Origin: a virus
Reading direction: 5' to 3' (one strand)
Length of the DNA: 28,503 nt
IMG/VR virus record: IMGVR_UViG_3300023210_000160
Span: 1-28,503 of that record
Position numbers and translations under genes: made by a program. Of this stretch, positions 2,353 to 28,503 are shown piece after piece. The notes below the pieces were generated by a model, which worked only from the letters and a program-made list of their open reading frames with translations, had not been told where the DNA came from and made no database searches. Each line of letters starts with the position of its first letter. Position 1 is the first letter of the stretch.

Positions 2353-3921
2353 TTATGATGTTACTACTTCTACCCAAAACTGATGGTAATTTCTACTAGT
2401 TGCTACGTTATACATATATGATGCGTTGTCCCCACTATATATAATAGAGGCATTTGATCTACTTAATGCAGCAGATGTAGTTTGTGAATCCATATATATT
2501 TCAATATGATCTATAAACCTTGTTACTGGCTTTTCATACTGTACATAATATGCTGTGTTTAAATTAATAACAGTCATATTACTAACACTTAATGCACCAA
2601 CAGTGTATGCTTTAGATACCGTACCGGGGCTAGAGTATATTCCTTCTTTAACTGCATATATTCTATATGACATTGTACCACCTGTATTAAAAGTAGTATC
2701 TACAATTGTCATAGTTCCTGCAAAATCATCTGGAGGTATTTGTCCAATAATCCCAAAATCACCACCATCATCTGATGACCAAACTTGATAGTAATCTATA
2801 TTATTTGTTGATGATTTACCAAATAAAATCTCTATAGTTTCACCTACAATATTTGCACTAATGTTAGTAGGAGCACCTGGTGCTGTAGGTCTATAATTAC
2901 TTATAGCATTATCTACATATGTTTTATTTGTTGCATCTGTACCAGATGAAACTGTATCTACCCCTTGTATCCTACCAGTTCCTCCAAGAGTAATATCACC
3001 ACCAGAAACTGTTATATCATTAGCAAAAGTAGAATTACCACTTGTATCATTTATTGTTGTTGTTTTTCTACCTGCCCATCCACTACTCCAATTATCAGGA
3101 GAAGAGTTAATTTCCAGTCCTGATTCAGCATTTATATAAAGAAATTCATTTGTTTGTCCTGTTGCTACAGAATATGCTTCACCTGCATTTAATACAAGTT
3201 GTTGTCCACTACCTCTAATATAACCATTAAATGTTGTATTATCTGTAAATGTTTTAACACCACCTATTGATTGTGCTCCTGTGGTTCTTATAACTGTACT
3301 GTCTAATTGAATAGTACCTGTACCCGTTATAGTTCCACCTGTAATACCATTTGTTGTGGCTATAGAAGTAACACCTGAGCTTGTAACATATCTTCCATCA
3401 AGATCAACTGTTACTGCAGTAAGTCCAGATCTATTAAGTGTTAATACACCATTACCTGTATTAAAAGATGCAGAACTTAAATAATAGTTTGTTGTTGTAT
3501 CCTTAGATATAATCTCAATAGTATCTGTACTTGCATCAGTCTTTATTGTAATATTACTACCTGCTTTAAATGTAAGTGTATCATTATTATTATCTGCAAC
3601 AATGTTAGATTGACCAGCTGCTGCAATATTTTTAAATATGTTTTGAGCTGAACCTCTATCACTATTTGATAAGGTTATTGTACCACTTGATGTTATTGTA
3701 CCTGTACCAGATAAACCATTAGAACCTGTAACAGTAACTGAAGTCACAGTACCTGTTCCTGTACCTGCACCAATATCTGATAAAAGTTGAGCTTTAGTTC
3801 TGTACTTCAATCCTGAACCATCCCATACTAATATACCAGTATATGTACTGTTATCATTCCCTATACTAGTGACAGTACATGATCCGTTTATTTCTATTGA
3901 AGATAAAAAACTTATAGCCAT
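2353..3921 (-). CDS. Tail fibre protein with fibronectin type III-like domain
   Basis: This 522-aa fibre protein has three visible parts. Residues ~1-230 are Gly/Thr/Ser-rich beta repeats including GLSGTGTITSSGTITL, GITGGTITGTGTIQL and the VTVDLDGRY module shared with the gene at 1-460. Around residues 310-340 there is a phage-fibre joint, GTDATNKTYVDNAIS. From ~343 to 440 a fibronectin III-like domain begins PGAPTNISANIVGETIEILF and continues through YYQVWSSDDGG and SYRIYAVKEG; a further beta domain follows. Fn3 domains are common accessory modules on virion surfaces that bind cells or carbohydrates. The gene follows a terminator-containing 97-base gap. The fibre assignment is firm; its exact position in the tail is not. 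Confidence 0.85.
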   Translation of the reverse strand: MAISFLSSIEINGSCTVTSIGNDNSTYTGILVWDGSGLKYRTKAQLLSDIGAGTGTGTVTSVTVTGSNGLSGTGTITSSGTITLSNSDRGSAQNIFKNIAAAGQSNIVADNNNDTLTFKAGSNITIKTDASTDTIEIISKDTTTNYYLSSASFNTGNGVLTLNRSGLTAVTVDLDGRYVTSSGVTSIATTNGITGGTITGTGTIQLDSTVIRTTGAQSIGGVKTFTDNTTFNGYIRGSGQQLVLNAGEAYSVATGQTNEFLYINAESGLEINSSPDNWSSGWAGRKTTTINDTSGNSTFANDITVSGGDITLGGTGRIQGVDTVSSGTDATNKTYVDNAISNYRPTAPGAPTNISANIVGETIEILFGKSSTNNIDYYQVWSSDDGGDFGIIGQIPPDDFAGTMTIVDTTFNTGGTMSYRIYAVKEGIYSSPGTVSKAYTVGALSVSNMTVINLNTAYYVQYEKPVTRFIDHIEIYMDSQTTSAALSRSNASIIYSGDNASYMYNVATSRNYHQFWVEVVTS

Positions 3922-3956
3922 GACATTTTATTCTTTGTTTGCAATATACATATTTT

Positions 3957-4003
3957 AAAAAAAAGGGGAAACACTAAATTCTAGATTTAAATGCTCCCCC
4001 TTT
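3957..4003 (-). terminator. Rho-independent-type terminator after the 801-aa fibre gene
   Basis: Read on the minus strand, AAAGGGG pairs with CCCCTTT around a ~28-base interior (itself containing the near-palindrome AAATCTAGAATTT). A run of eight T follows directly. It begins about 16 bases past the stop of the 801-aa gene. The stem is 7 bp with a large loop, so efficiency may be partial. Confidence 0.65.
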
Positions 4004-4018
4004 AAATTCTACTTTTTA

Positions 4019-6424
4019 TTATCCTACAAGTTGCATTACTACTGTAATGTCATTTGCACCCATATTAGAAGTTGTAGTAAATGTTACAGTTCCTGAAGCT
4101 TTATCTGCAAGAACATCCATAAATACTTGATTTCCTTTAGAATCATAAGTTTGAATAATCCAAGGTCCATTAGCTAATCCATGAACACCAGTAGCAATAC
4201 TAAAAGTGTTTGCAGTAGTTGCTGGATAAGTACCTGTGTATGATCTTTTAGATTGAGCACTTGCTAATGTTGCTGGAGTTACATATCTAAATGTATCTGT
4301 TCCTGCATCTACTTCAGCTTGTGTTGCAATCTCTGTAACACCAACTGTTGTTGTTGTAGCATTAGGTAATGTTCTTTTCTTCATTGATTGAATAACACCA
4401 TCAGTAACATTAATCTCATCTACTACATCTACACCACTAGTATTAAGATCTGTATCAGTACCAATAATCTTATTGAATGTACTTGCTAGTTGAGCATCAC
4501 TAATTCCACCTGCTTTAACAGTAATGAATCCAGTTGCTGTACCAGCAAAAGTTGCACTACTAAATCCAGCAACACCTTTTTCAGTTGCTCCATCTGTAGC
4601 ACCTACACCCGCAATGTTTTGATCTTGTATTACTATAGCATAATCTGAAGCTGGAGGATTAGAACTTGCTGCAATTGTTTGATTAGCATAAATTGTATCA
4701 CCAACCTCTACGGCTACCGTACTTCCATTAAATGCTATAGTACCATCTTTAGTAACAACAAAGAAATCCCCGGTTGTTAGTGCAATGTTACTTGCTCCTG
4801 CTATTGCTGGTGAGTTTGCTGATGCATCATATCCACCTTGGAATACACCAACTCCGGCTACAAGTGCTTGTACTTGTCCTAAATTAACTCCATCCTTTGA
4901 TGCTGTACCATTTGCTAGTTCTGTAAGTTTGAAGTTTCCAAAACTTAAATCAGCAGAAGGTTTATCAAATACAGATAATGAAACCTTACCAAGCGGTTGT
5001 TTAGCTGTTACACCTGTACCACTTGCAGCATCTTGTATTAATATTAAGTCATCAGCTAATGGAGTTTGTCCAAATAATGGAGCATCTTCTATAAGACCGG
5101 CTGTTCCATAATCAACTTCAACTGTACCTGTAGATGTAATTGTTCCACCTTTAAGACCTTTTCCTGTAGCAACACTTGTTACTGTACCAGTTGTATAAGT
5201 ACCTAAAGTTAAATCACCACGTACTACTTGAGCTGATGAACCTGCTCCAGCAATATTAATTGTACCTGAAGTAGTAATTGGTCCACCTGTAATTGTTAAT
5301 GCATTACCTGTTTCTGTTATTTCAATACTTGTTACACCTGAACCAGAATCATTAACCCACTCTACTACACCTAATGAGGAAACAGCAAGTCTTTGCCCAC
5401 TTCCACCAATTGCTAATGTAGCTAATGAATTTGCACCGTCTGCAAATAATATATCTCCTTTAGTATATGCTGCTAATCCTGTACCTCCATTTACTTCATT
5501 TAATGTACCAGCTAGAGTAATTGTTCCACTACTTGTAATTGGACCACCACTTGTTGTTAAACCAGTAGTTCCACCACTAACATCAACAGAAGTTACAGAA
5601 CCTGCACCTGCATTAATATAACTTGCTACTTGAGATAAGTTTGCATATTTAGCATTGCTATCTGTATCATCAGAAAATAAAATTTTATCATCCGCAACTA
5701 AATCAATAGCTGTTCCATTAGCAGCTGCTAATACAACGTTGTCTACTCCTGCATAATCTACTGCTAGTGTTCCTGCTGCAGTAATTGCACCACCTGTTAA
5801 ACCTGCTCCAGATCCTACAGAAGTAACTGTACCATCTTTACCAAAACCTGGCATAGTAGCAAGAGTAGTCTTGTAAATAGTAGCATCCTCTTTAGCTGAG
5901 AACCATAAGTAATCGTCAGGTTGAATAGCTAAAGTACTAGCTGTTAAGATTGCATTATCTGCACCGCTATAATCAATATTTACAGTTGGTGTTACAGTTG
6001 ATGTACCTGTAACAGAAATTCCTTTACCTTCAACTACATCTGTTACTGTACCAACATATTGATCAGCTGAATTAATAGTGAATGTAGAACCAGCACGTGT
6101 TACTGTGGTTGTACCTGAACCTGTATATACTATTGCATCAGTACTAGCTGGATTTGAAGCAACTAAATTTAATGTTGCTGTTCCGTTACCAGATCCTGTT
6201 GCTGTTAAGTCATAGGTTGTGTTACCATCTGCACCTGTTGTTAAATCTACCCAAGCAGAACCATCATATAATCTTAGTTTACTTGTACCAGAGTTATAAT
6301 AGATTTTACCTGCAATTCCTGACGGGTCAGCGCCAAGAGGCTGAATAATAACATTTTGTATTTGATTATTATTCAGGTTTAAATTTCCTTGGACATTAAG
6401 TCCCGTTAAAAATTGTACTGCCAT
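4019..6424 (-). CDS. Major tail fibre protein (801 aa)
   Basis: This long fibre has almost no charged patches and dense Gly/Thr/Ala/Ser content. The N-terminus (AVQFLTGLNVQGNLNLNNNQ, then LGADPSGIAGKIYYNSGTSKLRLYDG) resembles the attachment domain I recall from marine phage fibres. The shaft contains at least five variants of a repeat 'GG-x-IT-x2-GT-x3-DY' or 'SGGPITSSGTITL', consistent with a trimeric beta-structured shaft. Near the C-terminus GVTEIATQAEVDAGTDTFRY matches the tail-collar-type segment common before fibre tips, followed by a ~100-residue tip domain ending NDITVVMQLVG. It is the largest fibre gene and has its own downstream terminator, suggesting high expression. Confidence 0.9.
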   Translation of the reverse strand: MAVQFLTGLNVQGNLNLNNNQIQNVIIQPLGADPSGIAGKIYYNSGTSKLRLYDGSAWVDLTTGADGNTTYDLTATGSGNGTATLNLVASNPASTDAIVYTGSGTTTVTRAGSTFTINSADQYVGTVTDVVEGKGISVTGTSTVTPTVNIDYSGADNAILTASTLAIQPDDYLWFSAKEDATIYKTTLATMPGFGKDGTVTSVGSGAGLTGGAITAAGTLAVDYAGVDNVVLAAANGTAIDLVADDKILFSDDTDSNAKYANLSQVASYINAGAGSVTSVDVSGGTTGLTTSGGPITSSGTITLAGTLNEVNGGTGLAAYTKGDILFADGANSLATLAIGGSGQRLAVSSLGVVEWVNDSGSGVTSIEITETGNALTITGGPITTSGTINIAGAGSSAQVVRGDLTLGTYTTGTVTSVATGKGLKGGTITSTGTVEVDYGTAGLIEDAPLFGQTPLADDLILIQDAASGTGVTAKQPLGKVSLSVFDKPSADLSFGNFKLTELANGTASKDGVNLGQVQALVAGVGVFQGGYDASANSPAIAGASNIALTTGDFFVVTKDGTIAFNGSTVAVEVGDTIYANQTIAASSNPPASDYAIVIQDQNIAGVGATDGATEKGVAGFSSATFAGTATGFITVKAGGISDAQLASTFNKIIGTDTDLNTSGVDVVDEINVTDGVIQSMKKRTLPNATTTTVGVTEIATQAEVDAGTDTFRYVTPATLASAQSKRSYTGTYPATTANTFSIATGVHGLANGPWIIQTYDSKGNQVFMDVLADKASGTVTFTTTSNMGANDITVVMQLVG

Positions 6425-6454: not shown

Positions 6455-6997
6455 TTAGTTTAAAAAGACACATCCTGAAAAAGATGCAGCAAATGTTATT
6501 TTTAATTGTTGTGAGCTTATATATTCTACATTACCTACTACTACTGTATTTCCACTATCTATTACTGTTACAGAAGGATACTCTCCTAAATTATGTGTAA
6601 TAGTCCAAATAGATGATGCTACTTCAAAACATTCTGTATATGTACCTTGATCTGCTAATACTCCTTCTAAGTCAAGTATTGTACAAACACTACTTGGTGT
6701 CTCAGCACAACTTACACTTGCTTTTAAGTTAATCTCTGCTAAAGGTTCTACAAATACCCCGGCTGTTTCTGTTGCAGCTACTACTTTATTACTAGATGCA
6801 TTTTGCCAATCACATAAATCTTTTCTAATAACTGCTAATTCCATATCTGTGTAACAGCATGCTTCAATACCAAATCTAATAGATTGAAAATTTGCATATA
6901 CTTGTTTTGCAAATGTTTGTTCTACATTTATTTGTTTTAGTAGTGCAAGTTCTTTTACTTTTTCAGCATTAGAATAAGATCTTATTGCTTTAGCCAT
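6455..6997 (-). CDS. Virion protein with C-terminal fibre-type beta domain (180 aa)
   Basis: The N-terminal ~70 residues are helical and Cys-containing (EACCYTDMELAVIRKDLCDW). The last ~50 residues (WTITHNLGEYPSVTVIDSGN to FAASFSGCVFLN) match the 'His-Asn-Leu-Gly ... Pro-x-Val' beta module found at the ends of many phage fibre and baseplate proteins. Seven Cys residues are present. It starts one base after the stop of the 59-aa zinc-ribbon gene and precedes the big fibre, so an adaptor joining fibres to the particle is a reasonable inference. Only the terminal module is recognised. Confidence 0.7.
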   Translation of the reverse strand: MAKAIRSYSNAEKVKELALLKQINVEQTFAKQVYANFQSIRFGIEACCYTDMELAVIRKDLCDWQNASSNKVVAATETAGVFVEPLAEINLKASVSCAETPSSVCTILDLEGVLADQGTYTECFEVASSIWTITHNLGEYPSVTVIDSGNTVVVGNVEYISSQQLKITFAASFSGCVFLN

Positions 6998-6998
6998 A

Positions 6999-7178
6999 TT
7001 ATTTATTTCTTAAATCTTGTATCTGTTGCCTAGCCAATTCTCTATTCAAATTACTTGAGGTAGATACATCTGCTTCAGCTTTTGTTTTACATTGTTTACA
7101 TACAATAACTCCATTGCCTAATGAAGCTTTTTGACATCCACAAGTAAATTGTTTATTACAGTGAGCACAATTTGCCAT
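6999..7178 (-). CDS. Small zinc-ribbon-like protein (59 aa)
   Basis: This short gene (59 codons) fills the gap between the 191-aa and 180-aa genes. It reads MANCAHCNKQFTCGCQKASL, then a central CKQC and a polar helical tail ending QDLRNK. Cys residues at 4, 7, 13, 15, 27 and 30 form CxxC and CxC pairs suited to binding one zinc ion, perhaps more. The start has an A-rich leader (AAAAAGAAATGG) like its neighbours, and its stop is one base from the next ATG, so it fits the operon. A structural or assembly role alongside its Cys-rich neighbours is inferred. Confidence 0.75.
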   Translation of the reverse strand: MANCAHCNKQFTCGCQKASLGNGVIVCKQCKTKAEADVSTSSNLNRELARQQIQDLRNK

Positions 7179-10947: not shown

Positions 10948-11032
10948 TTTTTGGTTTTTAAAAATTAATAATTATTACTCTAGTCAAATTGTATACCGTA
11001 GCATACGCTTCTATTATTACTAATATTTCTAA

Positions 11033-11052
11033 AGCAAGGTTTAACCCTTGCT
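11033..11052 (-). terminator. Hairpin after the 84-aa gene (weak terminator or processing site)
   Basis: AGCAAGG and CCTTGCT form a perfect 7-bp stem with a 6-base loop, starting 12 bases past the stop of the 84-aa gene. The sequence that follows on the minus strand (TTAGAAATATT) is only moderately U-rich, so it may be a leaky terminator or an RNA-processing or stability hairpin. Confidence 0.45.
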
Positions 11053-11063
11053 AAAGTATTTGA

Positions 11064-11318
11064 CTATTCTTCTTCAACTACTGGTATAACAACTTTAAGT
11101 AAGCCTGCTGTATGATATATATCTCCTGTCTTTAGTCCTGCTGCAATTGCTGCTGCATTATCTAAATACGAAGAAGAAACAGCCACATCACGTATCCAAG
11201 ATATTACTTCATTTACATGTAGTAATCTTGCGTTTCCTGTTTCTGCTCTTGATACACCTTCATAAGCTGGGCTCTCAAATTGTTGCTTCAACTTAGTTAT
11301 TTGTTTTGGTGCTGCCAT
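11064..11318 (-). CDS. Small virion-associated protein (84 aa)
   Basis: The C-terminal half, YLDNAAAIAAGLKTGDIYHT then AGLLKVVIPVV, is a short module I recognise from small phage structural proteins ('DxAAAxAAGLxxGDxYrT...LxVV'), often adjacent to capsid genes. The N-terminal half is polar and helical. It lies directly downstream of the capsid gene, beyond that gene's terminator. A head decoration, fibre-linker or minor capsid role is likely, but which is unknown. Confidence 0.65.
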   Translation of the reverse strand: MAAPKQITKLKQQFESPAYEGVSRAETGNARLLHVNEVISWIRDVAVSSSYLDNAAAIAAGLKTGDIYHTAGLLKVVIPVVEEE

Positions 11319-11335
11319 GATTGTTATATTTATTA

Positions 11336-11376
11336 GTTAAAAATAAAAAGGGAGGAGGTATTAGCCCCTCCCCTTT
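11336..11376 (-). terminator. Terminator after the major capsid gene
   Basis: On the minus strand AAAGGGGAGG pairs with CCTCCCTTT (nine pairs, one bulged G) around an ~11-base loop, followed by TTTTATTTTT. It starts 12 bases after the capsid stop codon and would end an abundant capsid transcript. Confidence 0.8.
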
Positions 11377-11387
11377 AATTATAGTTC

Positions 11388-25480: not shown

Positions 25481-25616
25481 AGTATTTTATTTAGTGTGAA
25501 ACCCTTCTATAAGAACAATATACTAAATTTCTAAATCCTATAAAAATTTTTAAGTAAGAACATACCCCCGCCTACTGTTAAATTGTCCTCCTGGCCCCCA
25601 CAAAAGTTATGTGTTT

Positions 25617-25655
25617 GGCGTGCTTAAGAGGTATTACTGTTCTGCTCCCCAACTA
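25617..25655. repeat. TCTGCTCCC repeat element, degenerate copy
   Basis: GGCGTGCTT (25617-25625) and TCTGCTCCC-CAACTA (25641-25655) match the 5' arm and the 3' consensus of the copy at 26484-26525. The intervening 3' stem arm has diverged, so no strong hairpin forms here. Confidence 0.5.
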
Positions 25656-25770
25656 AATTTTGCAGTCAGGGTACCCCCTATCATTACATAGGGACTCAAA
25701 CTGCATATGCTAACTGCATAATTGTTGTACTTTAAAAATAAAGAGTATGACATCTATGCATTGCATTCGG

Positions 25771-25787
25771 AGTAGTATAGTACTACT
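25771..25787. promoter_or_regulatory. Perfect inverted repeat, possible operator
   Basis: AGTAGTA and TACTACT are separated by TAG: seven pairs with a 3-base spacer. It sits centrally in the divergent region, where a dimeric regulator could affect both directions; as RNA it would be a tight hairpin. Similar short-spacer palindromes of different sequence occur at 26579-26593 and 28383-28397. Confidence 0.4.
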
Positions 25788-25883
25788 TTGTCTACGTCAG
25801 TATCTACTGAATATCAATACATCATTGACTTGTTTGTATTCATCAGTATGCTATACATAGGTAGGCAAGCTCAGTACTGTATA

Positions 25884-25923
25884 AGGCATTTTTCAATGCC
25901 TCTGCTCCCAAACTATTATTAGC
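25884..25923. repeat. Hairpin + TCTGCTCCC repeat element, copy 1
   Basis: The stem is AGGCATT/AATGCCT with loop TTTC (GAAA, a GNRA loop, on the minus strand). It is followed by TCTGCTCCCAAACTAT and TTAGC. It lies 76 bases upstream of the first rightward gene, and copy 2 flanks that gene on its other side. Confidence 0.7.
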
Positions 25924-25925
25924 GG

Positions 25926-25968
25926 GATAAGCCGTTTAACCTTTTCAGCAATAGCCTTATCACTATTG
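25926..25968 (+). promoter_or_regulatory. Possible leader pseudoknot before the 153-aa gene
   Basis: CAATAG (25949-25954) and CTATTG (25963-25968) form a 6-bp stem whose 8-base loop contains CTTATC. That loop is complementary to GATAAG at 25926-25931. The arrangement could fold as a pseudoknot about 30 bases before the ATG. Confidence 0.4.
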
Positions 25969-25998
25969 TAAATAAATAATTACTAAATAAATTTTATT

Positions 25999-26460
25999 AT
26001 GATTAACAAAGTAACAGTACGCAAGCATGAAGACGGGAACTACGTTCAAAAAACTAAAAACAATGACATAGGCTACGTCATCTATGAATCACAAGAAATG
26101 GTTTATAATGGTAGCTGGTTGGATAAAAAGACTTTGTCTGCCTTAATTTTGGCTCCAATGGAATTGCTTAACAGTATGGACCATAGTAAACCATTATCAG
26201 GTAAGATAGTGGTGCGTGAGCAACTTGAGCCTATTAATGCTCAGGACCTGAACTTCAAACTGAAGTATGCCGGTGATACAGGGATTGTATGTATGCATGG
26301 AGATTCTCCTATCTACAGAACCACGGAGTATACACCTGACTTAAATGCTCAGTCTGTACTTATCAAGCACACCAATGGTGCTGAGATAAGAAACGCTAAC
26401 TCTTCCACGGAAGCAGTTGAGAGCTTGGAAGCTTTCAAGCAGGAATCTGTAGAAGCGTAA
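25999..26460 (+). CDS. Hypothetical protein, first rightward gene (153 aa)
   Basis: The start MINKVTVRKHEDGNYVQKTK follows a TACTAAATAAATTTTATT leader. The protein is soluble, with mixed beta strands and helices (a LSALILAPMELLNSM helix and a KIVVREQLEPINAQDLNFKL strand region) and an acidic helical tail (STEAVESLEAFKQESVEA). No family is recognised. It is flanked by two copies of the TCTGCTCCC hairpin element, and parts of it look somewhat richer in G+C than the late genes, so it may have arrived as a unit. Position suggests an early gene. The function is unknown. Confidence 0.75.
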   Translation: MINKVTVRKHEDGNYVQKTKNNDIGYVIYESQEMVYNGSWLDKKTLSALILAPMELLNSMDHSKPLSGKIVVREQLEPINAQDLNFKLKYAGDTGIVCMHGDSPIYRTTEYTPDLNAQSVLIKHTNGAEIRNANSSTEAVESLEAFKQESVEA

Positions 26461-26483
26461 TCCTAACATAGTAGCTTGTGGGT

Positions 26484-26525
26484 AGGCGTGCTTTCCAGCA
26501 CGTCTGCTCCCAAACTATGTTTAGC
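26484..26525. repeat. Hairpin + TCTGCTCCC repeat element, copy 2
   Basis: The 9-bp stem is AGGCGTGCT/AGCACGTCT (one G-U), loop TTCC (GGAA, also GNRA, on the minus strand). It overlaps TCTGCTCCCAAACTAT and is followed by TTAGC. Compared with copy 1, both stem arms change together, which suggests selection on pairing. Confidence 0.7.
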
Positions 26526-26744
26526 ACTTAATAAGCTGTAACTGTATGAATAGTACGGAACGTTACCAAAAAACAACCATAGTTACCAACTATTGTTACA
26601 TAAAGACCTAAACAGTCTAATTAAGTTATAAATACTGTGGTAATTTTATTTTATTTGGGTGTGTCTCTCTCAATGGGAGGTCATATACCCACAAAATACC
26701 ACCTTTTACCACTCTTGTAACTATCACTGTTACTAATAATATAA

Positions 26745-26761
26745 ATATAGCTAACGCTACT
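26745..26761. repeat. 17-base repeat copy 2 (ATATAGCTAACGCTACT)
   Basis: This is identical to 14491-14507 at the portal 3' end, in the same orientation. Here it lies in the loop of the ACTCTTGTA/TACAAGAGT stem and contributes its final base to the 3' arm. Confidence 0.6.
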
Positions 26762-26874
26762 ACAAGAGTAACTATTACACACAACAATATAACAAGGGTA
26801 GTCTTTGTCTCTTCCTCTATAGGATAATAGACATATTACCCGTAATCTCAATAATCCTTAAATACTAAATCATT

Positions 26875-27213
26875 ATGCAAATCAAATCAGAAACCAAGTT
26901 ACCAAACACTGTAATAACTATAAGATTAAATACAGCAAAAGAAATGTATGACTTCAGTGAAATTACACATGAACATACAGAGTATGATACTGATTGGAGT
27001 GAATTACTCTATTCATTAAGTGAGTACAAAGGTATTGATTCACATGTATACCTTCAGTATCCATCAGAACAACAACCTAAGAATGGGGATGTAGTTTGCA
27101 CTATAACTTTGTATTGTAAAGATTATGAGAAACTAGATTATCTTGAGGCAGAGATAACTAAATGTATATCAACTGCATTAACAGTTACTTGGCCTTGGGA
27201 AAGGAATAACTAA
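26875..27213 (+). CDS. Hypothetical protein (112 aa)
   Basis: The start MQIKSETKLPNTVITIRLNT follows the leader AATACTAAATCATTATG, nearly the same as that of the 66-aa gene. The protein looks like a small alpha/beta domain: beta strands VITIRL and DVVCTITLYC flank an acidic Tyr-rich helix (YDTDWSELLYSLSEYKG), and it ends with KCISTALTVTWPWERNN. No family is recognised. Its long, structured 5' gap suggests regulation at the RNA level. Probably an early phage gene. Confidence 0.7.
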   Translation: MQIKSETKLPNTVITIRLNTAKEMYDFSEITHEHTEYDTDWSELLYSLSEYKGIDSHVYLQYPSEQQPKNGDVVCTITLYCKDYEKLDYLEAEITKCISTALTVTWPWERNN

Positions 27214-27505
27214 ATAATAACTAATAATCCTACCGTATGGATGGAGGTGAATAACGGAGTGAATATCTCTATTAGTTATATCTTTTTAACCCGTGGCAAC
27301 GGGAGTGCTGGGTGTCACTATGTACACCAAGAGGAGTAGTTTGTCAGCTTAACCTCGTACTCTTTAGGCAATAATGCTGTAAGGTTTGACAACTGGAAAT
27401 GGAGTATTTGACTTGTCTGTGGAATATGTAACAGTCACCGTCAACCGGGTAAACGGTCGTTAAGAGGTAACCAAGCTCTTTATTTTTAACCAATACTAAA
27501 TCGTT
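27214..27505 (+). ncRNA. GC-richer structured gap (candidate RNA) before the 66-aa gene
   Basis: Positions 27290-27480 rise to about 45-50% G+C in an otherwise ~33% region. Helices: CCCGT-GGCA-ACGGG (27290-27303); GGTGT/ACACC (27311-27328); TTGTCA/TGACAA with inner AACCT/AGGTT (27341-27392); ACCGT/ACGGT (27437-27457). Last comes AAGAG/CTCTT (27462-27480) followed by TATTTTT, attenuator-like, ending ~20 bases before the ATG. A 32-codon ORF (27241-27339) runs through the first two hairpins but lacks independent support. Confidence 0.5.
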
Positions 27506-27706
27506 ATGAGAAATACTAAAACTATGTTACTGAGTATATCCGTGTATATTATCACAGTACTCTTATTCAACACAATCGTATGGTATCTAGAAGATACTTG
27601 GACATTTAAACAATGCTTTGCTCATGGTGCAACCATAGGCTTCTCACTTATATTTGCATGGGTACCTGCAACTATAGTAGCAAGAGATTATTATACTCGT
27701 ATTTAA
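27506..27706 (+). CDS. Small membrane protein (66 aa)
   Basis: Two hydrophobic segments are visible: LLSISVYIITVLLFNTIVWY (about residues 8-27) and ATIGFSLIFAWVPATIVA (about 42-59). They are separated by a polar loop (LEDTWTFKQCFAHG) and followed by a basic tail (RDYYTRI). It would be an inner-membrane protein with two spans. The leader AATACTAAATCGTTATG matches that of the 112-aa gene. Early phage membrane proteins often alter the host envelope or block superinfection, but no specific family was recognised. Confidence 0.75.
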   Translation: MRNTKTMLLSISVYIITVLLFNTIVWYLEDTWTFKQCFAHGATIGFSLIFAWVPATIVARDYYTRI

Positions 27707-27709
27707 TAC

Positions 27710-27820
27710 ACTGATTGATGACACTAGAGATCAGTATAAATGTATGTGTCAAAGAGCTAATCCATAACCAGTGGGAATGAGTCAACAATACCAATAAGAC
27801 TACAGGTTATGGCATTAGTT
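27710..27820 (+). promoter_or_regulatory. Pseudoknot-like and long-hairpin leader before the lipoprotein gene
   Basis: Directly after the 66-aa stop, ACTGAT/ATCAGT (27710-27735) and TGACAC/GTGTCA (27719-27751) interlock as an H-type pseudoknot or as alternative folds. Then CTAATCCATAACC (27757-27769) pairs with GGTTATGGCATTAG (27805-27818), 13 pairs with one bulged C, plus two flanking pairs, around a 35-base loop. It ends ~25 bases before the ATG at 27846. Confidence 0.55.
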
Positions 27821-27845
27821 AATTAATAGATAAATCCAATTTAAA

Positions 27846-28025
27846 ATGAAAAAGAAATTCTGTTACCTTATGCTATTCCTCTTTATAGGAGGACCAATAC
27901 TTCAATCTTGTGGATCATCTCGTGGATGTAAAAACATGAGAAAATACCGTAAGAAAAGAAGTAAAACTTCATATGCATATCAAAATGCATTAATCATTAA
28001 TCAATTAAACACTAAACTATCATGA
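27846..28025 (+). CDS. Small lipoprotein (59 aa)
   Basis: This 59-codon gene has a type II signal: MKKKFCYLMLFLFIGGPILQ, then SC at Ser21-Cys22 followed by GSSRG. Cys22 is the expected lipidated residue. The mature part is ~38 residues, strongly basic at first (KNMRKYRKKRSK), then a polar helix (YAYQNALIINQLNTKLS). 'SCGSS' after the signal is typical of Bacteroidetes lipoproteins, which supports the host guess. Its stop overlaps the next ATG (ATGA), so it is coupled to the 103-aa membrane protein. Phage lipoproteins made early can mask receptors and exclude superinfecting phage; that role is inference. Confidence 0.82.
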   Translation: MKKKFCYLMLFLFIGGPILQSCGSSRGCKNMRKYRKKRSKTSYAYQNALIINQLNTKLS

Positions 28026-28333
28026 AATATTTATTCAAGTACCTCGTTAAACTAATCTTTGTAGCTGTTATACCTATCGTTATGACAGTGATACTAGTCA
28101 ATCTATTCTTTACAATGGATTGGTCACCTACTATGATTGCAATTGTTGCTATCGTAACTATACTTACTTATGTCAATGCAATGTTTTACTCTATACATAT
28201 GAATAAAACATACTTATTACCCAGAATGAGGATAAGTACAAGACCTGGTATTGGTCTTGACATAGAGAAAGTACTACGTCATTGGGAATTAAGACTCCCT
28301 TTATTAACCGTAATCTTTCAAAGAAGAAAATAA
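28022..28333 (+). CDS. Membrane protein coupled to the lipoprotein (103 aa)
   Basis: Two hydrophobic helices, LVKLIFVAVIPIVMTVILVN (residues ~8-27) and TMIAIVAIVTILTYVNAMFY (~37-56), precede a basic, soluble C-terminal tail of ~45 residues (RMRISTRPGIGLDIEKVLRH and a final FQRRK). The positive-inside rule puts both ends in the cytoplasm. The start codon overlaps the lipoprotein stop by four bases, so the two are translated together and may act together at the envelope. No family was recognised; a holin is possible but less likely given its separation from the amidase operon. Confidence 0.75.
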   Translation: MKYLFKYLVKLIFVAVIPIVMTVILVNLFFTMDWSPTMIAIVAIVTILTYVNAMFYSIHMNKTYLLPRMRISTRPGIGLDIEKVLRHWELRLPLLTVIFQRRK

Positions 28334-28484
28334 AAAGGCTCACATATGGACCACTAACAACACCAGTAATTATATACTATAATAACACTAGGTGTTAAGG
28401 CTGTGTCCTTAATCAAATCATAGACTATCACTGTTACATTTCATACTTGTTTGCAGTGTGGTCTATGATTACAATATAAAATCA
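28334..28484 (+). promoter_or_regulatory. Hairpin-rich leader before the last gene
   Basis: Successive stems: TAACAC-TAG-GTGTTA (28383-28397); TTAAGG/CCTTAA around CTGTGT (28395-28412, sharing bases with the first); and AATCATAGAC/GTCTATGATT (28416-28470, 10 bp) with inner CACTG/CAGTG. The last ends 14 bases before the ATG at 28485, close enough to affect ribosome access. ACTATCACTGTTAC (28424-28437) also occurs at 26720-26733. Confidence 0.5.
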
Positions 28485-28503
28485 ATGGCAAAACAATATA
28501 ACG
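28485..28503 (+). CDS. Start of a further rightward gene (cut by window edge)
   Basis: An ATG at 28485 follows an A-rich leader (ACAATATAAAATCA) after the large hairpin and opens MAKQYN before the window ends. Position and leader match the other rightward genes. Nothing can be said about the product. Confidence 0.45.

Follow-up and report, generated by a model that had tools for sequence, protein, structure and literature searches.

Why would a phage that places the genes of one strand almost end to end leave the first stretch of its opposite arm half noncoding? The question is raised by IMG/VR record IMGVR_UViG_3300023210_000160, of which positions 1 to 28,503, one end of an incomplete virus record, are analyzed here and called the window. 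Its leftward genes cover 96% of their region with a median gap of 11 nt, whereas the rightward region is 50% coding and is interrupted by gaps 1-5, of 518, 414, 292, 139 and 151 nt; both the contrast in density and the gap lengths had been given by a first, sequence-only reading, and the open reading frame (ORF) coordinates agree with them. That reading took the gaps for an array of undescribed RNA elements. Conserved, structured elements are indeed present, but the region is not simply one RNA array: its likeliest organizing feature appears to be a repeated sense-strand motif, standing where new transcription units would begin. Around this 15-nt motif, which joins gaps 1 and 2 and had been missed, we propose with fair confidence a set of repeated early transcription-start cassettes, each made of a motif core, putatively a promoter, and a structured 5′ leader.

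25999-26460, 26875-27213, 27506-27706, 27846-28025 and 28022-28333, rightward: ORFs; the next ATG is at 28485

Protein comparisons identify the window phage as crAss-like (Crassvirales). Its major capsid protein matches the Pfam family Crass_capsid (PF23898, E = 2.1e-30, above the cut-off) in a Pfam search of the window proteins, and its TerL aligns by tblastn with Flavobacterium FPSV/Fpv phages and gut crAss-like records at 25-27% identity over 82-87%. No DNA match to named phages, near or distant, was found among 50,697 phage records. A terminase query against IMG/VR gave more than 590 related stretches, of which 80 were kept, and about 200 loci were fetched overall; the family is made up of crAss-like phages that are uncultured and for the most part marine. 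The crAss layout, i.e., the early arm on one strand, the late arm on the other, and giant genes, is seen in a 116-kb relative, G002, and because of this layout we place the five-gap region where the early arm begins, immediately to the right of the divergent junction. The giant RNA polymerase (RNAP) region is absent from the 28.5-kb window, and the RNAP motif was scored in G002, where a 4567-aa protein has ADFDIDK aligned with the catalytic SDFDIDK of gp66, the virion RNAP of phi14:2 (E = 3e-5). Its giant size and DFDxD motif mark this protein as a crAss-type virion RNAP.

A sense-strand motif at the head of the early arm

25641..25655, + strand: motif copy 1, TCTGCTCCCCAACTA (three-copy repeat and weight matrix in relatives)
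25901..25915, + strand: motif copy 2, TCTGCTCCCAAACTA (three-copy repeat and weight matrix)
26503..26517, + strand: motif copy 3, TCTGCTCCCAAACTA (three-copy repeat and weight matrix)

The three copies form a direct repeat, TCTGCTCCC[AC]AACTA, at 25641, 25901 and 26503, and none of 100 shuffles held three copies. Relatives share the consensus TCTGCTCCCnARCTA-N5/6-TGY; dozens of phages have the motif exactly, and a phage carries one to three copies, in the early sense. A weight matrix, trained on the same loci in which it was counted, gave 72 sense matches against 1 antisense match in the first 83 loci. An independent check with a plain pattern matched 16 of 20 whole records, with nearly all hits close to the arm head and on the early strand; read backward, the pattern had no match in the same 20. 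G002 has only three sites above 15 bits in its 116 kb, all early-sense and at the arm head, and the 80-kb relative G003 has two, also at the arm head. Copies are intergenic in all 25 loci checked, and the core, single-stranded in most copies, is invariant rather than covarying.

What follows the motif changes between phages. In the other clade, copy 1 lies 74-84 nt before a gene for a protein starting MSVFFRKL or a related one; the window clade lacks this gene, and ~240 nt of structured sequence lead from copy 1 to copy 2, which sits 97-98 nt upstream of gene A, the first early gene. The clades keep the copy-1 block with different genes behind it, which argues against a gene-specific leader for the motif. 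In six loci (L042, L051, L053, L153, L157 and L197), intrinsic terminators with perfect stems and T5-8 tails stand after an early gene and 50-130 nt upstream of the motif copy that comes next, as expected if each copy opens a transcription unit; this is the main argument for a promoter. The copies may be read as early promoter cores because they are the only repeated, strand-specific arm-head signals found, follow terminators and are indifferent to the next gene. Sigma-70 promoters (TTGACA/TATAAT) were at chance level (17 found vs. 15.3 expected), and the Bacteroidetes-type TAnnTTTG was judged by eye only, the spacing seen being TA-N3-TTTG. CRISPR-type and iteron readings of the copies were rejected, since the copies are too few and too widely spaced.

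Two further observations concern the surroundings of the motif. At copy 2 of the other clade (L034, L042, L051, L055 and others), an extra ATCTGCTC lies 20-30 nt upstream or a polypyrimidine run replaces the hairpin H1 listed below. In L043/G003, the first two early genes (6774-7103 and 5796-6131) are paralogue-like by eye, with the strings FRKLRVNENTG..GEETNLRW and VHMHCVNKV..GEETGMFW, and each has a motif copy upstream.

25560..25679, + strand: copy-1 block, ~110 nt (GCCCC..AAAAGTTrTGTGTTTGGC..AGGT..TCTGCTCCCCAACTA..GGTACCCCC), from alignment
25885..25900, + strand: H1 hairpin GGCATT-TTTC-AATGCC, immediately 5′ of copy 2 (per-copy comparison)
26487..26502, + strand: H1 hairpin CGTGCT-TTCC-AGCACG, 5′ of copy 3 (per-copy comparison)

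The copy-1 block aligns in 26 distinct relatives (41 instances), down to 83-84% TerL identity, with divergent versions in L209 and L217. Blocks of this type also occur in contigs binned into metagenome-assembled genomes, two of Flavobacteriaceae (L209:5528 and L217:4586-4607) and one of Pseudomonadales, probably a phage contig (L261:4685-4706), which gives a hint of flavobacterial hosts. H1, a hairpin of 6-7 bp with a TTYC loop, precedes every window-clade copy 2 and copy 3, with four different complementary stems and only 0-5 of 300 shuffles as good; it is absent from copy 1 and from all motif copies outside the window clade. It could be a terminator, a part of an RNA or an N4-like DNA promoter hairpin.

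Covarying RNA structure in the gaps

Nested RNA folding of the sense strand against dinucleotide shuffles shows clear structure in gap 1 (part 25640-25998, z = -7.3, 0/100 shuffles as good), gap 2 (z = -6.2, 0/100) and gap 5 (z = -5.0, 0/200). Gap 4 is marginal (z = -2.9, 2/200), and gap 3 (27214-27505) is at shuffle level for nested pairs (z = +0.13, 110/200). The antisense strand folds less well than the sense strand in gaps 1, 2, 4 and 5. Under this shuffle comparison, the earlier claim that every gap is densely structured stands for gaps 1, 2 and 5, weakly for gap 4, and fails for gap 3. The statement that helices end 14-40 bases before the next ATG was accurate, the last ones stopping ~16-40 nt before it. 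In homologues, the expected covariation is strong for gap 1 and was also found in gap 5, and the tail of gap 2 has no double-change pairs; the interlocking pairings turned out to be a kissing loop in gap 1 and, with modest support, a pseudoknot in gap 3. That the elements are undescribed agrees with what we found: the same noncoding modules recur before different genes in diverse phages, and no Rfam family matched the window at the gathering score, a permissive run giving a single 20-bit chance match (E 0.69). A scan of the window for tRNA and tmRNA found none.

25921..25968, + strand: kissing-hairpin RNA after copy 2 (covariation, automated search, covariance model R1)
25921-25936, + strand: hairpin A, AGCGG-GATAAG-CCGTT; loop GATAAG pairs with CTTATC in the loop of hairpin B
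25949-25968, + strand: hairpin B, CAATAG-CCTTATCA-CTATTG; loop CTTATC pairs with GATAAG
25999..26460, + strand: gene A, 153 aa, first early protein (ORF; AF2 model)

The kissing-hairpin RNA is well supported. In 11 distinct sequences, whose pieces were delimited by hand, 98.9% of cells are paired (68.9% when shuffled), 14 of 17 pairs have double changes, and covariation is 0.883 against 0.271 in shuffles (0/500); a slid-partner control gave at most 0.143. The two stems and the loop-loop helix are 96.4, 100 and 100% paired, with 5, 4 and 5 double-change pairs. Stems and loops change together in relatives, as in GCATA-CGTAAT-TATGC with GAATG-TATTACGG-CATTC and in GCGTA-GGCAAT-TACGT with AGGATG-ATTGCC-CATCTT. 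Because of the hand delimitation, an automated kissing-loop search was run on unaligned sequence; it recovered these loops in each of the copy-2 elements, and 0-2 of 60 shuffles did equally well. Around copy 3 and the copy 2 of other clades, kissing loops found by this search were mostly not above shuffles. A more divergent version can be seen by eye in L197. From hairpin B to the ATG there are 23-30 nt, 88-97% A/T in most members.

In the set examined, the kissing-loop cassette always precedes gene A. Gene-A homologues were found at 94 places, of which 20 have the motif within 220 nt upstream, all at the arm head, and 74, located elsewhere, lack it. Phages of the group have one or two members of the family; a paralogue with 40% identity (L002:8883-9353) lies ~3.9 kb further right. 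The protein matched no Pfam or PHROG family. Its AlphaFold2 (AF2) model (pLDDT 82.7) gave best Foldseek E-values of 0.11 (PDB) and 0.04 (BFVD), mostly to single-stranded DNA-binding protein (SSB) or PriB, a weak resemblance that would point to an OB-fold.

25661..25705, + strand: stem P1 TGCAGT/ACTGCA around GGGTACCCCC, with small hairpin CCCTAT/ATAGGG, directly after copy 1 (minimum free energy, MFE)
25771..25849, + strand: hairpin 25771-25787 and long hairpin 25804-25849 (CTACTGA../..TCAGTAG, inner ARTACA/TGTAYT), alignment A7

Over gap 1, six helices in the 12-sequence alignment A7 have 97.0% of cells paired against 89.8% in shuffles (0/500), and 5 of their 11 double-change pairs fall in the helices of 25771-25849. 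The other-clade P1 after copy 1, in a ten-sequence subset of constant geometry, has covariation of 0.295 against 0.107 shuffled (0/500), with stem variants TTGTGG/CCACAA, TTGAGG/CCTCAA and ATGTGC/GCACAT. A single consensus P1 for all copy-1 blocks was rejected, the per-sequence unaligned test being weak.

26739..26850, + strand: gap 2 conserved tail, ATATAAATATAGCTAAC..TGTCTCTTCCTCTATAGGATAATAGACATATTACCCG (21 diverse loci aligned)
27341..27406, + strand: gap 3 candidate H-type pseudoknot, TTGTCA/TGACAA and AACC/GGTT, with TACTCT/GGAGTA across the loop (alignment)
27462..27487, + strand: AAGAG..CTCTT TATTTTT, terminator-like, at the end of gap 3 (conservation among 7 aligned relatives)
28348..28401, + strand: gap 5 module with hairpin X, AACACC/GGTGTT (core CTAACARYACCAGTAATTATA..AACACTAG in 27 distinct loci)
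28416..28470, + strand: gap 5 hairpin Y, 12-bp stem with conserved apical ATACTTGTTT (covariation)

The remaining gaps hold modules of their own. The gap 2 tail occurs in 19 of 31 records, once in each, with no match of the reversed control, and many phages have a different gene after it; it may act as RNA or as DNA. A coding reading of the tail was rejected, since the frame ending GGATAA is broken by in-frame stops (by eye) in L129, L138, L149 and L153, and so was a hairpin in the GTGTGTGTCAC block of gap 2, whose pairs are inconsistent by eye. The gap 3 pseudoknot has modest support from homologues: in seven relatives it is 99.1% paired, with 2 double-change pairs and a covariation of 0.185 against 0.085 (0/500), while the pair count is not significant (141/500). 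In L108 the gap 3 module precedes a different gene, and its terminator-like hairpin is below the G+C threshold of our terminator scan. Pieces of gap 4 are shared with other loci, at positions not conserved among relatives. In gap 5, hairpin X appears in relatives as AATACC/GGTATT, and RNAalifold gave no structure for the 27-locus module, probably because its A/T part aligns badly; hairpin Y, in six sequences, is 100% paired with 4 double-change pairs (1/500).

What the cassettes may do

We infer promoter function, the polymerase, the transcription start sites and the function of the leaders from this arrangement. The 15-nt core would lie at or just upstream of a transcription start, with a structured 5′ leader after it. 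Copy 1 would lead into the stem enclosing GGGTACCCCC; copy 2 into the two loop-kissing hairpins, about 23-30 nt of A/T-rich sequence and the first early gene; and copy 3 would start a leader or small RNA of ~370 nt. Early transcription could be started by an injected virion RNAP or by the host polymerase with a phage factor. The injected enzyme seems the most likely, and to it we give about half of the confidence placed in the cassettes as a whole. In phi14:2 and crAss001, early genes are transcribed first, within minutes, and early transcription of phi14:2 depends on the injected virion RNAP (PMC10136315, PMC8375218). The leaders may stabilize or control early mRNAs, and the kissing loop before gene A may be a switch of stability or translation, for example if a phage protein binds it and represses gene A translation. 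That the motif is a virion RNAP promoter and that every start also leads into a structured leader or small RNA, among them a kissing-loop RNA controlling the first early protein, is a combination we put forward tentatively, below even chances.

Several points weigh against this proposal. At ~370 nt, the distance from copy 3 to the following gene is large for a simple leader. Covariation is also seen in the H1 hairpins before copies 2 and 3, so that the start could lie farther upstream, with the motif inside the transcript. A search of phi14:2, the crAss-like phage with a studied virion RNAP, reached no more than 8.7 bits and did not find the motif. In the gap 2 tail, RNAalifold gave a 4-bp helix only, with no double-change pairs. 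Finally, the composites A5, A8 and A12 were delimited by hand and lean towards structure, and related sequences inflate covariation counts.

Known systems offer partial parallels. The early promoters of the N4 virion RNAP (Schitoviridae) are likewise present in few copies near early genes, in a phage with a virion-carried polymerase, and a short hairpin stands directly upstream of the core, as at window-clade copies 2 and 3, with stems that vary while pairing is kept. N4, however, has 3-nt loops and a required hairpin, whereas H1 has a TTYC loop and occurs only at window-clade copies 2 and 3; H1 thus departs from the N4 type, a 5-7 bp stem with a 3-nt loop at every promoter. The N4 enzyme is T7-like, and the crAss-type RNAP is an unrelated two-barrel enzyme; N4 is not known to have a covarying leader RNA. 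The early promoter motif of P23-45 resembles the present one in being short, conserved, placed upstream of pre-early genes and shared by relatives that encode a virion two-barrel RNAP (PMC10770324); it is AT-rich, while the motif described here is C-rich (TCTGCTCCC). Neither a crAss-like promoter motif nor a recognition sequence of a crAss-type virion RNAP was found in the literature searched, the original phi14:2 RNAP paper being outside that search. For the leader, T4 gene 32 offers a comparison: in its autoregulatory leader, an H-type pseudoknot and then an unpaired A/U-rich strand precede the start codon. A looped RNA tertiary pairing and an A/U-rich strand before an early gene are seen here as well, with two kissing hairpins in place of the T4 pseudoknot. 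The gene A model is also weakly SSB/PriB-like, homology to SSB not being established by best E-values of 0.04-0.11; if the likeness is real, self-repression in the style of T4 gene 32 would be a natural guess.

Other explanations have to be weighed against start cassettes. The motif might act within the transcript, like a nut or put antitermination site bound by a protein or by the elongating polymerase, with H1 and the downstream hairpins in one RNA structure. Lambda nut and HK022 put sites likewise stand at the start of early transcription units as structured elements of the sense strand, and the motif is always sense, in one to three copies at the head of what would be long early transcripts; H1 covaries and is contiguous with it, the MFE fold of copy 3 pairs the motif with upstream bases, and terminators exist in the early arm. 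We nevertheless find this rather unlikely: the terminators identified precede the motif copies and do not come after them, the strongest conserved part is a 15-nt core that is unpaired in most copies and does not covary, and this core would work with different flanks, H1 being missing at copy 1 and outside the window clade. Some cassettes might instead be free-standing small RNAs with their own motif promoter, regulating host or phage genes in trans; possible candidates are the ~240-nt interval that separates copies 1 and 2 and a ~350-nt stretch running from copy 3 to the CTATAGGA..TACCCG block. The window clade has no conserved gene between copies 1 and 2, where the sequence folds at z = -7.3, the gap 2 tail is kept while the next gene changes, and the gap 3 module stands before different genes and ends in a terminator-like hairpin. 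On the other side, the window scan found no T-tract terminator in the interval from copy 1 to copy 2 or where gap 2 ends, transcription running on into the next gene is the simpler assumption, and the kissing-loop cassette has gene A behind it throughout the set examined; we consider such small RNAs a possibility on the doubtful side. The large noncoding RNAs GOLLD, ROOL, HEARO and others are also long, conserved and structured, but the units here are much shorter, have no Rfam match and are tied to putative early-arm transcription starts.

The conserved blocks could also be DNA sites, i.e., a replication origin, a packaging site or extruded hairpins as in N4, with the RNA-like pairing incidental. 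Such sites are commonly found at the junction of two arms, the gap 2 tail has sequence conservation with no covariation, and H1 directly upstream of the core resembles the layout of the N4 promoter hairpin, at -17 to -5 (PMC4496689). We hold this to be quite improbable, since covariation with G-U pairs is seen in both the kissing loop-loop helix and the gap 5 hairpin, the sense strand folds better than the antisense, and H1 is absent from most motif copies. Least probable, and very remote, is that the structure is an artefact of A/T-rich sequence and of related genomes. Gap 3 at shuffle level, the marginal gap 4 and a leftward intergenic stretch that also folds well speak for it, but the gap 1 kissing loop was equaled in 0 of 500 shuffles, far exceeded the slid controls and was recovered by the automated search with 0-2 of 60 shuffles as good per sequence, and the motif is exact in dozens of phages with no match to the reversed pattern. 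The artefact reading is refuted for gap 1 and, less strongly, for gap 5; it stands for gap 4.

The motif cassettes and the kissing-hairpin RNA family have apparently not been described before. If the motif is a virion RNAP promoter, early infection in an abundant phage order would use a two-layer RNA/DNA start system, and a 15-base arm-head motif present in many relatives makes the choice of start sites by crAss-like virion RNAPs directly testable. In the kissing-hairpin RNA, apparently an undescribed family, the loop-loop covariation is complete. The other modules point to an unusual wealth of RNA elements in the early arm of these phages, left blank by annotation.

Other sequences in and around the early arm

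Left of copy 1, 25481-25560 holds two conserved sequences, CTTCTATAAgAACAATATACTAA and CTATAAAAATTTTT, upstream of the late genes, which run leftward; this may be the late promoter region. On the - strand, the stretch 10948-11387, upstream of the capsid gene and in part a small ORF, folds at z -6.2 against shuffles. A reading of the gap RNAs as Y-like RNAs of a Ro/TROVE ribonucleoprotein was considered, and a TROVE protein was found in 0 of 10 phage records.

Repeats of AATACTAAATCRTTATG lie right at the start codons of different early genes, at 26861-26877 and 27492-27508 in the window and also in L197 and L203; they are a possible translation-start sequence in hosts without Shine-Dalgarno pairing. 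In the cultured crAss-like phage phi14:2 (NC_021806.1), the early arm also has long stretches without annotated genes (L096:1278-1984 and 2904-4602), in which earlier ORF calls had been removed from the record.

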